A stretch of 64,000 nucleotides of DNA from an uncultured Pelagibacteraceae bacterium. Its GTDB lineage: Bacteria > Pseudomonadota > Alphaproteobacteria > Pelagibacterales > Pelagibacteraceae. The stretch spans positions 1-64,000 of the forward strand of contig CACIOP010000005.1 in the NCBI GenBank assembly GCA_902588315.1, given 5' to 3'. Below are positions 35,349 through 46,486 of this stretch, piece after piece (position 1 is the stretch's first letter; each line of letters starts with the position of its first letter). A model generated the notes under the pieces. The model saw only the letters and a program-made list of their open reading frames with translations. It was not told where the DNA came from and did not search any database. The position numbers were made by a program, and so were the translations under genes.

Positions 35349-35932
35349 TATAATAAACTAATATATTCTTTTATTTTTTTTACAGGCAATCCCATAATTG
35401 TATCTTCGTCCCCTTCTATGCTTGAAAACAAATTCCTGCCTTCACCTTCAATCTGATAAACATTATATGCATATAAGGCTTTATCTGTTATTTTTGATAA
35501 ATAATTTCTTAGCTCATCCTCTGAAAAACTTTTCATAGTAAGTTTTGCTTTGTCAGTATAATTCCAAATCATAGAACCATTTTTTGATAAACATACAGAG
35601 CTGATTAAAAAATGTGATTTACCATTAAGTTTTCTTAATATTTTTAATGCTTCTTCTCTATTTTTTGGTTTAGATATTATTTCCCCCTCTAAATCTATTA
35701 CACTATCTGCACCTAAAACTATATCTTCAGTTTTTTTCATACTCACCTTGTTTGCTTTTAATTCGGCTAAATTTTTGGAAATTATCTCTGGACTAGCTTT
35801 TTCCTTAATTAGACTTATCTTAATAACATCTTCATCTACATTTGATGGCTCGACAATACTTCTGATATTGTTTTTGTCTAAAATTTCTTTTCTAACTTTA
35901 CTTTTAGACGCAAGAATAATTTTACTTAGCAT
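35348..35932 (-). CDS. Maf-like nucleotide pyrophosphatase
   Basis: KIILASKSKVRKEIL, VLGADSVIDLEGEIISKP. Confidence 0.92.
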   Translation of the reverse strand: MLSKIILASKSKVRKEILDKNNIRSIVEPSNVDEDVIKISLIKEKASPEIISKNLAELKANKVSMKKTEDIVLGADSVIDLEGEIISKPKNREEALKILRKLNGKSHFLISSVCLSKNGSMIWNYTDKAKLTMKSFSEDELRNYLSKITDKALYAYNVYQIEGEGRNLFSSIEGDEDTIMGLPVKKIKEYISLL

Positions 35933-36749
35933 TATTTAAATATATTTCATGAATTTTTATAATCGATGCCGCAGTTTCTTCAACAGATTTTCTTGTTACA
36001 TCAATTTGTGGCCATTTATATTTCTGAAATGTTTTTTTTGCCTCCAAGACCTCTTTTCTTATATTTTCTAAATCCGTGTATTGTATGTTTTCAGTTTCTT
36101 TTAAAGAATTCATTCTGTTTTTTCTTAAATCAGCCAACCTTTCAGGCTCAGTGCTTAAACCTACTACGCAAGTCATTTTAGGGTTTTTCTTAAGTGTTTC
36201 TGGCAGCGAGTTTTCATTTACTAATGGAATATTAGATGTTTTGAATCCTTTGTTAGCCAGATAAATAGATGTTGGCGTTTTACTTGTTCTGCTGACACCA
36301 ACAAGAATAATATCTGATTTATCTATATCATTTATTAAATTACCATCATCATGGTTCATCGTAAATTGAATGGCTTCAATTCTGTCATAGTATTCCTCAT
36401 TTAGTATATGTTGCCCGCTTGGTTCGTGTGTTGCCTTCTGGTTTAAAATTTTTGAGAAATTTAAAATTAAATTTCCTAATACACCAAAACATGGAATTTT
36501 TTTGTCTTCACTTACGTTTGCTAAATATTTAGCTAAATTATTATCCACAATAGTATATAAAATTATTGCATTGGAATTTTTTTCTGCATCTTCTAAAATT
36601 TTTAAAATTTGGTTCTCCGTTCTTGTAAAAGAATAAGAATGAACCTTGTATTCTATATTTAAGAATTGAGCTTTCAGAGCTAAAAATATCCTATCTAAAG
36701 TTTCACCTGTTGAATCAGAAATTAAATATATTTGATATGTATTACTCAT
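35922..36749 (-). CDS. Pyruvate, phosphate dikinase regulatory protein (kinase/pyrophosphorylase)
   Basis: YLISDSTGETLDRI, ILVGVSRTSKTPTSIYLANKGFKTSNIPLV. Confidence 0.93.
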   Translation of the reverse strand: MSNTYQIYLISDSTGETLDRIFLALKAQFLNIEYKVHSYSFTRTENQILKILEDAEKNSNAIILYTIVDNNLAKYLANVSEDKKIPCFGVLGNLILNFSKILNQKATHEPSGQHILNEEYYDRIEAIQFTMNHDDGNLINDIDKSDIILVGVSRTSKTPTSIYLANKGFKTSNIPLVNENSLPETLKKNPKMTCVVGLSTEPERLADLRKNRMNSLKETENIQYTDLENIRKEVLEAKKTFQKYKWPQIDVTRKSVEETAASIIKIHEIYLNNAK

Positions 36750-37016
36750 GAATAAATAGTTAATAAATTTGTATTATTTTAATTAAATTCCACAATTTAA
36801 AATTTTCTAAATTATCCTTGTAAAAACTGCTTTTTATTAACATTAATAATAAATAGGGTAAAACAATCCACAAAAATTAATATGATGAAAAAAGCTTCAT
36901 TTTAAACAATTTTATTCCCACAACATGTTGGTAAATTGTTAATATAATGTTTATAAAAATTAATCACCTTTATTCACAAGATATACTACAACTACAATAA
37001 TAAATAATACTCTTTT
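36750..37016. promoter_or_regulatory. Putative chromosomal replication origin (oriC)
   Basis: 267-bp AT-rich gap between the PPDK-regulator gene and hemE with DnaA-box-like sites TTATTCACA (36970-36978) and TTATTCCCA (36912-36920); mostly minus-strand genes to the left, plus-strand to the right. Confidence 0.7.
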
Positions 37017-38021
37017 ATGAAACCATTAAACAAAATAATAATTAACAAAGATACTTCATTTAATCCCATCTGGATAATGAGACAAGCAGGAAGATATTTA
37101 CCAGAATTTAGAGAAATAAGAAAAAAAAATCCCAATTTTATTAATTTGTGCCTAAATGATGATTTATCTTCAGAAATAACCCTGCAACCTTTAAAAAGAT
37201 TTAATTTAGATGCTGCAATAATATTTTCAGATATCTTAATGCTTCCGTATGGTTTGGGTCAAAAAGTAGAGTTTCAGAAAAATTTTGGACCAAAGTTAGG
37301 AGTATTAAATTTAAATGAAATTGCCAAGATTGACGAAATTGATTTTGTAGAAAAAATACATCGTGTATATAAGGCAATAAAAAAAGTTAGCTCGGACAAC
37401 AGTTTAACAAATAAAAATACTATTGGTTTTGTTGGTGCTCCATGGACACTATTGGTTTACATGATTAATCAACAATCTCCTAAAAAAAACTTGAAAAAAG
37501 ATTTTTTTAAAGATGATTTTTTAATAAATAGAATTTTACTAATTATTGAAAAATTTTTAAAGACCCATATAAAAAATCAAATTGAAAATGGTGCAAATAT
37601 AATTCAGATCTTTGATAGTTGGGCAGGTTTGTTGGAAGAAAAAGATTTGCCCAATTATGTATATTCTCCAACTTTAAATTTGGTAAATTATGTAAAATCT
37701 TTAAATGTGCCAGTGATATGTTTTCCCAGAGAAATAAAAAATTATAAAGAGTTTTGTGATATTGTTAGACCCGATGCTGTAAGTATTGATTATAACGCAG
37801 ATCCAAAAAAAATACTTAAAGATATAAAAATACCTATTCAAGGTGGCTTAGACCCGAAAATTTTATTAACAGACAAAGAAACTTTAAAAAAGGAAGCTTG
37901 TAAATATTTAGAAATTTTTCAAGATCACCCATATATATTTAATCTTGGGCATGGTATTCTTCCTGAAACAAATCCAGAAATGGTTGAAAATTTAATTAAA
38001 ATTGTAAAAGATTTTAAATGA
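37017..38021 (+). CDS. hemE: Uroporphyrinogen decarboxylase
   Basis: PIWIMRQAGRYLPEFREIR, GFVGAPWTLLVYM. Confidence 0.95.
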   Translation: MKPLNKIIINKDTSFNPIWIMRQAGRYLPEFREIRKKNPNFINLCLNDDLSSEITLQPLKRFNLDAAIIFSDILMLPYGLGQKVEFQKNFGPKLGVLNLNEIAKIDEIDFVEKIHRVYKAIKKVSSDNSLTNKNTIGFVGAPWTLLVYMINQQSPKKNLKKDFFKDDFLINRILLIIEKFLKTHIKNQIENGANIIQIFDSWAGLLEEKDLPNYVYSPTLNLVNYVKSLNVPVICFPREIKNYKEFCDIVRPDAVSIDYNADPKKILKDIKIPIQGGLDPKILLTDKETLKKEACKYLEIFQDHPYIFNLGHGILPETNPEMVENLIKIVKDFK

Positions 38022-44206: not shown

Positions 44207-44850
44207 TGGATCAAGAAATTTTAAATTTTTATTCTAGAATCAATCACTTGAATGTTTCACGTGAAACATTTATGGACTTTGAAAACTATATATCCCTGAT
44301 TCTTGAGAAAAATAAAAAAATCAACATAATTAGCCAAAATACAGCATCAAAAAAGGCTATAATTGACCGTCATATTATTGATTCAGCACAAATAATTGAT
44401 TTTGTTGATTTAAATAGCAATACAACCACAGATATAGGTTCAGGAGGGGGTATGCCAGGCATAATTGTGGCAATTATACTAAAAAATATGAAAAATAATA
44501 TGAATGTGCACCTTTATGAAAAAAGTTATCATAAAAGCCATTTTTTAAAAGAAGTTTCAAAAAAATTAAATTTAAACACAAAGGTTTTTCAAAAAAATAT
44601 TTTTGAAATAAAAAATTTAGAAACAGGAACGATAATGTCCAGAGCATTTAAACCAATGCCAGTAGTTTTAGAATTAGTATATGAAAATTTTTCAAAATAT
44701 AAAAATTTAATTTTCTTTATGGGTAAGAGTGGGAAAAAAATTTTTGAAAATTCCAAAAAAAATTGGGAGATGGAATATATAGAAAAGAAAAGTTTAACAA
44801 GTGAAGACTCATTTTTAATTAATATTAAAAAAATTAAAAAAAAAAATTAA
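44206..44850 (+). CDS. rsmG: 16S rRNA (guanine527-N7)-methyltransferase
   Basis: LNVSRETF, TDIGSGGGMPGIIVAI. Confidence 0.92.
   Translation: MDQEILNFYSRINHLNVSRETFMDFENYISLILEKNKKINIISQNTASKKAIIDRHIIDSAQIIDFVDLNSNTTTDIGSGGGMPGIIVAIILKNMKNNMNVHLYEKSYHKSHFLKEVSKKLNLNTKVFQKNIFEIKNLETGTIMSRAFKPMPVVLELVYENFSKYKNLIFFMGKSGKKIFENSKKNWEMEYIEKKSLTSEDSFLINIKKIKKKN
44253..44268. promoter_or_regulatory. parS centromere site
   Basis: Exact palindrome TGTTTCACGTGAAACA within rsmG, about 0.6 kb upstream of parA-parB. Confidence 0.95.
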
Positions 44851-45651
44851 ATGCAAATTATTTCAGTAATAAATCAAAAGGGTGGGGTTGGAAAAACTAC
44901 TACGGTGATAAATCTTGCAGCTGGATTATCTCAAATAGGTAAAAAAATTTTAGTAATTGACCTAGATCCACAAGGGAACGCAACAACCGGCCTGGGATTA
45001 TCCAACACTGATAGTTCAACTGATACAATTTATGGAGTATTAAATGGAACAAGAGAAATTAGTGAAGTTATTAAAAAAACACAGTTTGAAAATTTAGATA
45101 TTATAACATCTAATGTAGATTTATCGGGCCTAGAAGTAGAGACGGCTGATGATAGTAACAGGGCTTTTATACTTAAGACTAAATTAGCCGCATATTTAAA
45201 CGATTCTAGTGGTTTATATGATTATGTCTTAATCGATTGCCCACCATCTTTGAGCTTATTGACAGTAATGGCACTTGTAAGCTCAAATTCACTATTGGTA
45301 CCACTTCAGACAGAATTTTTTGCTTTAGAGGGTTTAACTCAACTAATGAAGACAATTGAAAGGATAAAAGTAAGTTTAAATCCAGATCTGAAAATAAGGG
45401 GTATACTTTTAACGATGTATGACAAAAGAAATAAGCTTTCCTCACAAGTTGAAAAAGAAGCAAGAGACTATTTTACTGAAAAAGTTTATTCAACCGTGAT
45501 ACCAAGAAATGTTAGATTGTCAGAAGCTCCTTCACACGGAATGCCAGTTTTGATTTATGACAAATCTTGTCCTGGCAGTAAATCATATTTTAGTTTTACT
45601 GATGAGTTTATAAACCAAGAGTCAACAATAGGAGCGCTGCTTAATGGATAA
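44851..45651 (+). CDS. parA: Chromosome partitioning ATPase ParA
   Basis: VINQKGGVGKTTTVINLAAGL deviant Walker A. Confidence 0.96.
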   Translation: MQIISVINQKGGVGKTTTVINLAAGLSQIGKKILVIDLDPQGNATTGLGLSNTDSSTDTIYGVLNGTREISEVIKKTQFENLDIITSNVDLSGLEVETADDSNRAFILKTKLAAYLNDSSGLYDYVLIDCPPSLSLLTVMALVSSNSLLVPLQTEFFALEGLTQLMKTIERIKVSLNPDLKIRGILLTMYDKRNKLSSQVEKEARDYFTEKVYSTVIPRNVRLSEAPSHGMPVLIYDKSCPGSKSYFSFTDEFINQESTIGALLNG

Positions 45652-46486
45652 GATTAAAAAAGGATTAGGTCGGGGATTATCATCGTTGATAGGAGAAACA
45701 AAAGTAGAGTCTCAAAGAAATCAACTATCGATAAGTGATCTAGTTCCCAATAAATATCAACCAAGAAAATTTTTTGATGAATCTAGTTTAGAAGATTTAA
45801 CTAATTCAATTAAAGAGAGAGGTTTAATTCAGCCCATTGTAGTAAGAAAATCTAATGATGATGCATCTAAATTTGAAATTATTGCAGGAGAGAGAAGATG
45901 GCTTGCAGCTCAAAGAGCTGGACTTCATAATGTTCCTGTCGTTGTTACAGAGGCAGATGACCTGAAGTCTTTAGAATTTGCAATTGTAGAAAATGTTCAA
46001 AGACACGATTTGAATCCACTTGAGGAAGCACAAGGATACAAAAGATTAATTGACGAATTTTCTTATGATCAAGAAAAAGTCTCAAAATTTATTGGAAAAA
46101 GCAGAAGTCATATTTCAAATATTTTGAGACTTTTAACGTTACCTAATGATGTAATTAAATTAGTTGAAACACAAAAATTAACTGCTGGACACGCTAAAGC
46201 TCTGGTTGGTCTTGATAATTCTAGTTTTGTAGCTGCCAAAATTATAGATAAAAAACTTTCTGTCAGACAAGCTGAAAACTTAGTTAAAATTTTCAAAAAT
46301 AAAAAACCAAAATCTCAAAAATCAAAAGATACGAATATTATTGCTCTTGAATTATCTGTTTCAAACAAAATAGGATTAAATGTTAATATACAGAATAATA
46401 AGAGAAATAAGGGTAAAATAAGTTTTGAATACAAAGACTTAGACCAATTAAATAAAATTATAGATATAATAAAAAAAAATTATTAA
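45644..46486 (+). CDS. parB: Chromosome partitioning protein ParB
   Basis: GLGRGLSSLIG, YQPRKFFDESSLEDLTNSIKERGLIQPIVVR, AGERRWLAAQRAG. Confidence 0.96.
   Translation: MDKIKKGLGRGLSSLIGETKVESQRNQLSISDLVPNKYQPRKFFDESSLEDLTNSIKERGLIQPIVVRKSNDDASKFEIIAGERRWLAAQRAGLHNVPVVVTEADDLKSLEFAIVENVQRHDLNPLEEAQGYKRLIDEFSYDQEKVSKFIGKSRSHISNILRLLTLPNDVIKLVETQKLTAGHAKALVGLDNSSFVAAKIIDKKLSVRQAENLVKIFKNKKPKSQKSKDTNIIALELSVSNKIGLNVNIQNNKRNKGKISFEYKDLDQLNKIIDIIKKNY

Follow-up and report, generated by a model that had tools for sequence, protein, structure and literature searches.

A probable chromosomal replication origin between COG1806 and hemE in a SAR11 genome, with a DnaA-trio-like repeat beside its main DnaA box

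The origin of the Caulobacter crescentus chromosome (Cori) has been mapped experimentally to the region between hemE and COG1806, and the Rickettsia origin was placed there too (PMC1914354). In Bacillus subtilis and other bacteria, a basal unwinding system (BUS) consisting of a DnaA box, a spacer and DnaA-trios has been described (PMC6669920, PMC8287927, PMC10721633). Asn187 of DnaA reads the middle A of the Bacillus code, 3'-GAT-5', while Arg202 and Glu228 read its G (PMC10721633), and deviant trios lacking the middle A have been anticipated (PMC8287927). Reading of single-stranded origin DNA by DnaA is established for the Bacillus code only, and a search of the main text of open-access papers for DnaA-trios in Alphaproteobacteria yielded one paper, which deals with Epsilonproteobacteria.

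In this study, we analysed a window of 64,000 nucleotides on contig C5 of a SAR11 (Pelagibacter-like) assembly, which comprises 1.12 Mb in 29 contigs and is 83% complete. Its proteins have close relatives in Pelagibacteraceae (SAR11) single cells and MAGs, and 80 such relatives served solely to name the group. An earlier note had proposed that a gap in this window, at positions 36750-37016, is the chromosomal oriC. Our results support this proposal through synteny, constant gap length, conserved box positions, a box-plus-trio module and the skew minimum of a relative, and we regard the gap as very probably the oriC of this genome. The novelty of the location is limited, because other members of the class lead one to expect an origin here and SAR11 origins have probably been predicted in the manner of DoriC; the novel part is a candidate variant of the trio code.

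The COG1806-hemE gap and its surroundings

The putative oriC is a 267-bp intergenic gap (36750-37016) that separates an ORF on the minus strand (35922-36749) from an ORF on the plus strand (37017-38021). The left ORF encodes the pyruvate phosphate dikinase (PPDK) regulator COG1806/DUF299 (PF03618; NF003742, 303 bits), and the right ORF is hemE, encoding uroporphyrinogen decarboxylase (TIGR01464, 315 bits over the cut-off). The GC content of the gap is 18%, compared with about 22-38% in 2-kb windows, which places its AT content above the genome level. The earlier note had correctly delimited this AT-rich gap between a PPDK-regulator gene and hemE, and its remark that the origin also lies beside hemE in Caulobacter and Rickettsia agrees with PMC1914354. 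It overlooked that the PPDK regulator is COG1806, the left neighbour at the proven Caulobacter origin, and it also overlooked the trio repeat described below.

The genes maf, aroE, coaE and dnaQ lie to the left of the gap, and hemH, hemJ, rho, mnmE, mnmG, rsmG, parA and parB lie to the right beyond hemE. Gaps in this compact genome are short, with a median of 0 bp among 30 neighbouring ORFs, and a single other gap, of 270 bp, was as large. The strand switch seen in the earlier note is real: the ORFs at 30.5-36.7 kb are on the minus strand except fxsA and secB (32.5-33.3 kb), and those of at least 100 aa at 37.0-46.5 kb are all on the plus strand, except one spurious ORF nested in mnmG. The parS-parAB locus, said to be 7-9 kb away, was likewise found less than 10 kb from the gap, with a perfect parS (TGTTTCACGTGAAACA) at 44253-44268 (+), 7.2 kb away, and parA and parB at 44851-46486 (+). 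Within the gap, we detected no structured RNA (fold z = 0.13, with no Rfam match nearby), no indication of coding (the longest stop-free stretch was 38 codons) and no GANTC (CcrM) sites. Positions 36796-36846 of the window were 80% identical over 50 bp to G000:C8:10233-10282 (locus L002; E 1.7e-5), a match that may be due to chance in AT-rich DNA.

The earlier note had named a GC-skew minimum and a coverage peak elsewhere in the chromosome as a refutation of the origin. We ran the skew check on a same-genus relative (G012) with a complete 1.34-Mb chromosome and a hemE 76% identical to that of the window, which was sampled at 58% and stood in for the 29-contig host. The cumulative GC skew bottomed out in a plateau at 1.22-1.31 Mb and reached its maximum near 0.60-0.66 Mb, and the plateau covers the orthologous gap at 1.262 Mb. 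With a width of 90 kb, this minimum is not sharply placed, and it partly reflects gene direction. As a correction for gene direction, every candidate origin was scanned for the leading-minus-lagging difference in third-codon-position GC skew. The difference was highest with the origin at 1.27 Mb, whereas leading-strand genes reached their largest share with it at 1.29 Mb.

Origins close to dnaA are common in bacteria, and a plateau leaves some room for an origin elsewhere, either at dnaA or at another cluster of boxes, for example at 1.324 Mb in the relative. The dnaA gene of the relative, at 1.198 Mb, is about 63 kb from the gap and lies off the skew plateau. A comparison of box-like sites, given below, also bears on this explanation.

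DnaA-box positions in the gap

The consensus DnaA box TTATNCACA occurred 37 times in the assembly and 38 times in the reversed control, and 3 times in the window versus 3.6 expected. Since these counts are at chance level genome-wide, little weight can be given to a perfect box by itself, and the gap contains one only. The relaxed site TTATNNACA was found 94 times in 30 orthologous gaps versus 10.4 times in dinucleotide shuffles, an enrichment whose z-score is inflated because the 30 gap sequences are related. We then aligned the 30 gaps and, for each strand, scored all positions as matches to TTATNNACA, allowing no more than 1 mismatch. The results showed seven box positions common to 16-28 of the 30 genomes, while all other positions were shared by at most 7 and the 95th percentile of positions was 2.

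The leftmost of these is a DnaA-box-like site at the gap's left edge, TTATTAACT (36758-36766, -; 25/30), followed by TTATTAACA (36834-36842, +; 26/30) and by a position that is degenerate in the host genome (36853-36861, -; 16/30). Three sites of the same orientation then succeed each other at an 11-bp step: one at 36926-36934 (-; 20/30), also degenerate in the host, ATATTAACA at 36937-36945 (-; 16/30) and TTATAAACA at 36948-36956 (-; 17/30). The seventh is the main DnaA box, TTATTCACA, at 36970-36978 (+; 28/30). It is abutted in tandem by a weak box-like 9-mer, TAATCACCT (36961-36969, +), that was present in 24 of the 30 genomes with at most 2 mismatches to TTATNNACA. The three boxes cited in the earlier note, TTATTCACA, TTATTCCCA (36912-36920) and CAATCCACA (36864-36872), were all present where it had put them, but only TTATTCACA is conserved; the positions of TTATTCCCA and CAATCCACA are not (3/30 and 2/30 with at most 1 mismatch). 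The 30 gaps also contained 3 IHF-like sites and 20 CtrA-like pairs (TTAA-N7-TTAA), the latter being a raw count in AT-rich DNA.

Among 11,240 sampled tiles of the complete relative, two places contained three TTATNNACA sites. One was the gap, and the other was a 280-bp place 62 kb from it (G012:C1:1324201-1324480). This second cluster speaks for an origin elsewhere, but it contains no consensus box, whereas the gap tiles, and only these, include two. In six genomes, the 400 bp upstream of dnaA contained neither TTATNCACA nor TTATNNACA. Together with the position of dnaA outside the plateau, these results make an origin at dnaA or at the 1.324-Mb cluster extremely improbable.

A further explanation is that the gap is merely a shared promoter or regulatory region of the two divergent genes, with TTATTCACA serving mainly as the -35 element of a hemE promoter. 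Divergent pairs need promoters, which are probably also present in the gap, and a promoter-like TTCACA-17-AATAAT (10/12) begins within the box. However, promoter-like matches were not above shuffles (4 versus 4.7), the seven box positions are spread over the whole gap, and the gap sits at the skew minimum in the relative.

The neighbouring genes provided another line of evidence on the promoter explanation. COG1806 and hemE were divergent around a 261-284-bp gap in 30 of 30 same-genus loci, and around a 327-1067-bp gap in 28 of 30 genomes drawn from 30 other alphaproteobacterial families. In a sister family (f2), PF03618/COG1806 was absent from 10 of 10 genomes searched (L161-L170, handles G037-G060), and the order dnaQ-coaE-aroE-maf was kept, followed by a gap with boxes and TAC repeats and then by hemE. 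In G143 (L295:8528-10944), which belongs to the family of the window's genome but to a different genus, COG1806 faces rho and hemE is not adjacent; the COG1806-rho gap contains three TTATNNACA sites, with one more lying across the COG1806 start. The element thus remains beside maf after the loss of COG1806 and beside COG1806 after the departure of hemE, indicating that it is not simply the promoter of either gene. We therefore consider the promoter explanation very unlikely, and we retain the reading of the gap as oriC.

The hemH gene beside the f2 origin was 27-30% identical to that of the window in some genomes and 45-49% in others, with L161, L165, L166 and L168-L170 grouped against L162-L164 and L167. 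This split suggests that hemH was replaced by a different hemH.

The repeat beside the main box and the matching DnaA residues

The main box is followed by the spacer AGATA (36979-36983, +) and, 5 bp past the box, by the DnaA-trio-like repeat TAC TAC AAC TAC (NAC x4; 36984-36995, +). The remaining stretch up to hemE (36996-37016) consists of A and T except for two C, and its position makes it a candidate for strand opening. A box followed within 16 bp by NAC x4 (36970-36995) occurred once in the 1.12-Mb assembly, at the gap, and 0 times in the reversed control. Across the 30 genomes, A was found at +15, +18, +21 and +24 from the box start in 93, 90, 100 and 97%, respectively; these A's were mostly preceded by T, and G was almost absent. 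When the SAR11 gaps were aligned on the box, TA dinucleotides were distributed over the three phases as 98:38:17, while no phase exceeded 75 in 500 shuffles. A period-3 scan over whole SAR11 gaps was weak (TA z = 3.7, AC z = 0.9), and the periodicity was seen only with box alignment.

By its sequence, the segment 36970-36995 resembles an unwinding module of the DnaA-trio type. The BUS is recognised by a DnaA box with at most 2 mismatches lying at most 16 bp from at least three phased trinucleotides, and the gap offers TTATTCACA, a distance of 5 bp and NAC x4. The BUS also has a middle adenine in each trio on the 3'-GAT-5' strand, and the middle bases on the opposite strand of the gap are A, A, T and A. 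The module thus appears BUS-like rather than a canonical BUS. We take the published boxes and trios to be oriented relative to each other as they are in the SAR11 gap.

The strict trio consensus [CT]T[AT] showed no excess in the SAR11 gaps, and we therefore turned to an unbiased period-3 scan of all dinucleotides. Period-3 runs of all single bases and dinucleotides were scored in the 200 bp before hemE in 28 other alphaproteobacterial gaps. The results showed that AC on the box strand was the top pattern in these gaps (z = 11.6) and also in the sister family f2 (z = 12.8), and that it again ranked first in 33 further genomes of the class outside the discovery set (z = 7.6). In 15 class genomes with runs of at least 3, the base before AC on the box strand was T in 18 cases, C in 22, A in 17 and G in 1. 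The repeat of the class is thus (NAC)n on the box strand, which corresponds to 3'-GNT-5' on the opposite strand.

We also aligned the SAR11 DnaA to that of B. subtilis (8btg) and read the same columns in 53 alphaproteobacterial DnaA proteins. The position of Asn187 was occupied by Tyr in 43, Phe in 6, His in 2 and Asn in 2 of these proteins. The position of Arg202 was Lys in all 53, and that of Glu228 was Glu in all 51 that were readable. Of the two genomes with Asn, G165 carries CTACTACTT after the box, which reads as the canonical GAT GAT GAA on the opposite strand, and G115 showed no clear trio run after the box. The link between repeat and residue 187 is a correlation that was found while looking and carries no phylogenetic correction. 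Two further DnaA-family proteins (L293 in G103 and L294 in G063) diverge around the initiator-specific motif and were unreadable with the motif used.

A tentative reading of these results, which we rate somewhat short of probable, is that Alphaproteobacteria use a DnaA-trio code of their own. This code would consist of (NAC)n with a free middle base, accompanied by the change of Asn187 to Tyr, Phe or His and by retention of the guanine-contacting positions (Arg202 as Lys, and Glu228). Under such a code, either the middle base would no longer be read, or DnaA would capture the opposite strand, on which A is constant. In the AT-rich SAR11 genomes, the repeat would have drifted to TA(C/A), with the A held at 90-100%.

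Comparison with known origins

The assignment of the gap as oriC is based on where it lies, on its synteny and conservation, on the skew minimum, and on the box array and the repeat. For the steps that lead from the binding of DnaA through extension of its filament and opening of the DNA to initiation, we infer the following course. DnaA would bind an array of TTATNNACA-type boxes, made up of a box at the left edge, a pair in the middle, three boxes repeated head-to-tail every 11 bp and the strong box at 36970-36978. A DnaA filament would then grow from the strong box onto the NAC repeat at 36984-36995 and capture one strand. It would open the AT-rich DNA next to hemE, the site at which the helicase would be loaded, and replication would proceed both ways, with the genes on either side pointing outward.

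SAR11 bacteria rank among the most abundant marine cells. A pinned oriC would provide a fixed zero point for their genomes and allow their replication rates to be read from origin-to-terminus coverage. The class-wide trio variant and the matching change in DnaA would also allow the reading of single-stranded origin DNA by DnaA to be tested cleanly.

The SAR11 gap resembles Cori and the other alphaproteobacterial COG1806-hemE origins, including that of Rickettsia (PMC1914354), in its two flanking genes, its AT-rich sequence and its cluster of DnaA boxes. It differs from Cori in being shorter (267 bp), in having DnaA sites relaxed to TTATNNACA and in containing hardly any IHF-like site. With the BUS, it shares a box, a short spacer, at least three in-phase trinucleotides and AT-rich DNA beyond them, and the published Clostridioides difficile BUS example, 5'-CACCTACTACTATTACTACTATGA-3' (PMC7561715), resembles CACAACTACTACTACTACC of the sister family f2. 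In the published BUS, however, the constant element is the middle A of 3'-GAT-5', whereas in the alphaproteobacterial repeat it is AC on the box strand and the middle base is free; Asn187 of B. subtilis DnaA is replaced by Tyr, Phe or His in 51 of the 53 alphaproteobacterial DnaA proteins.
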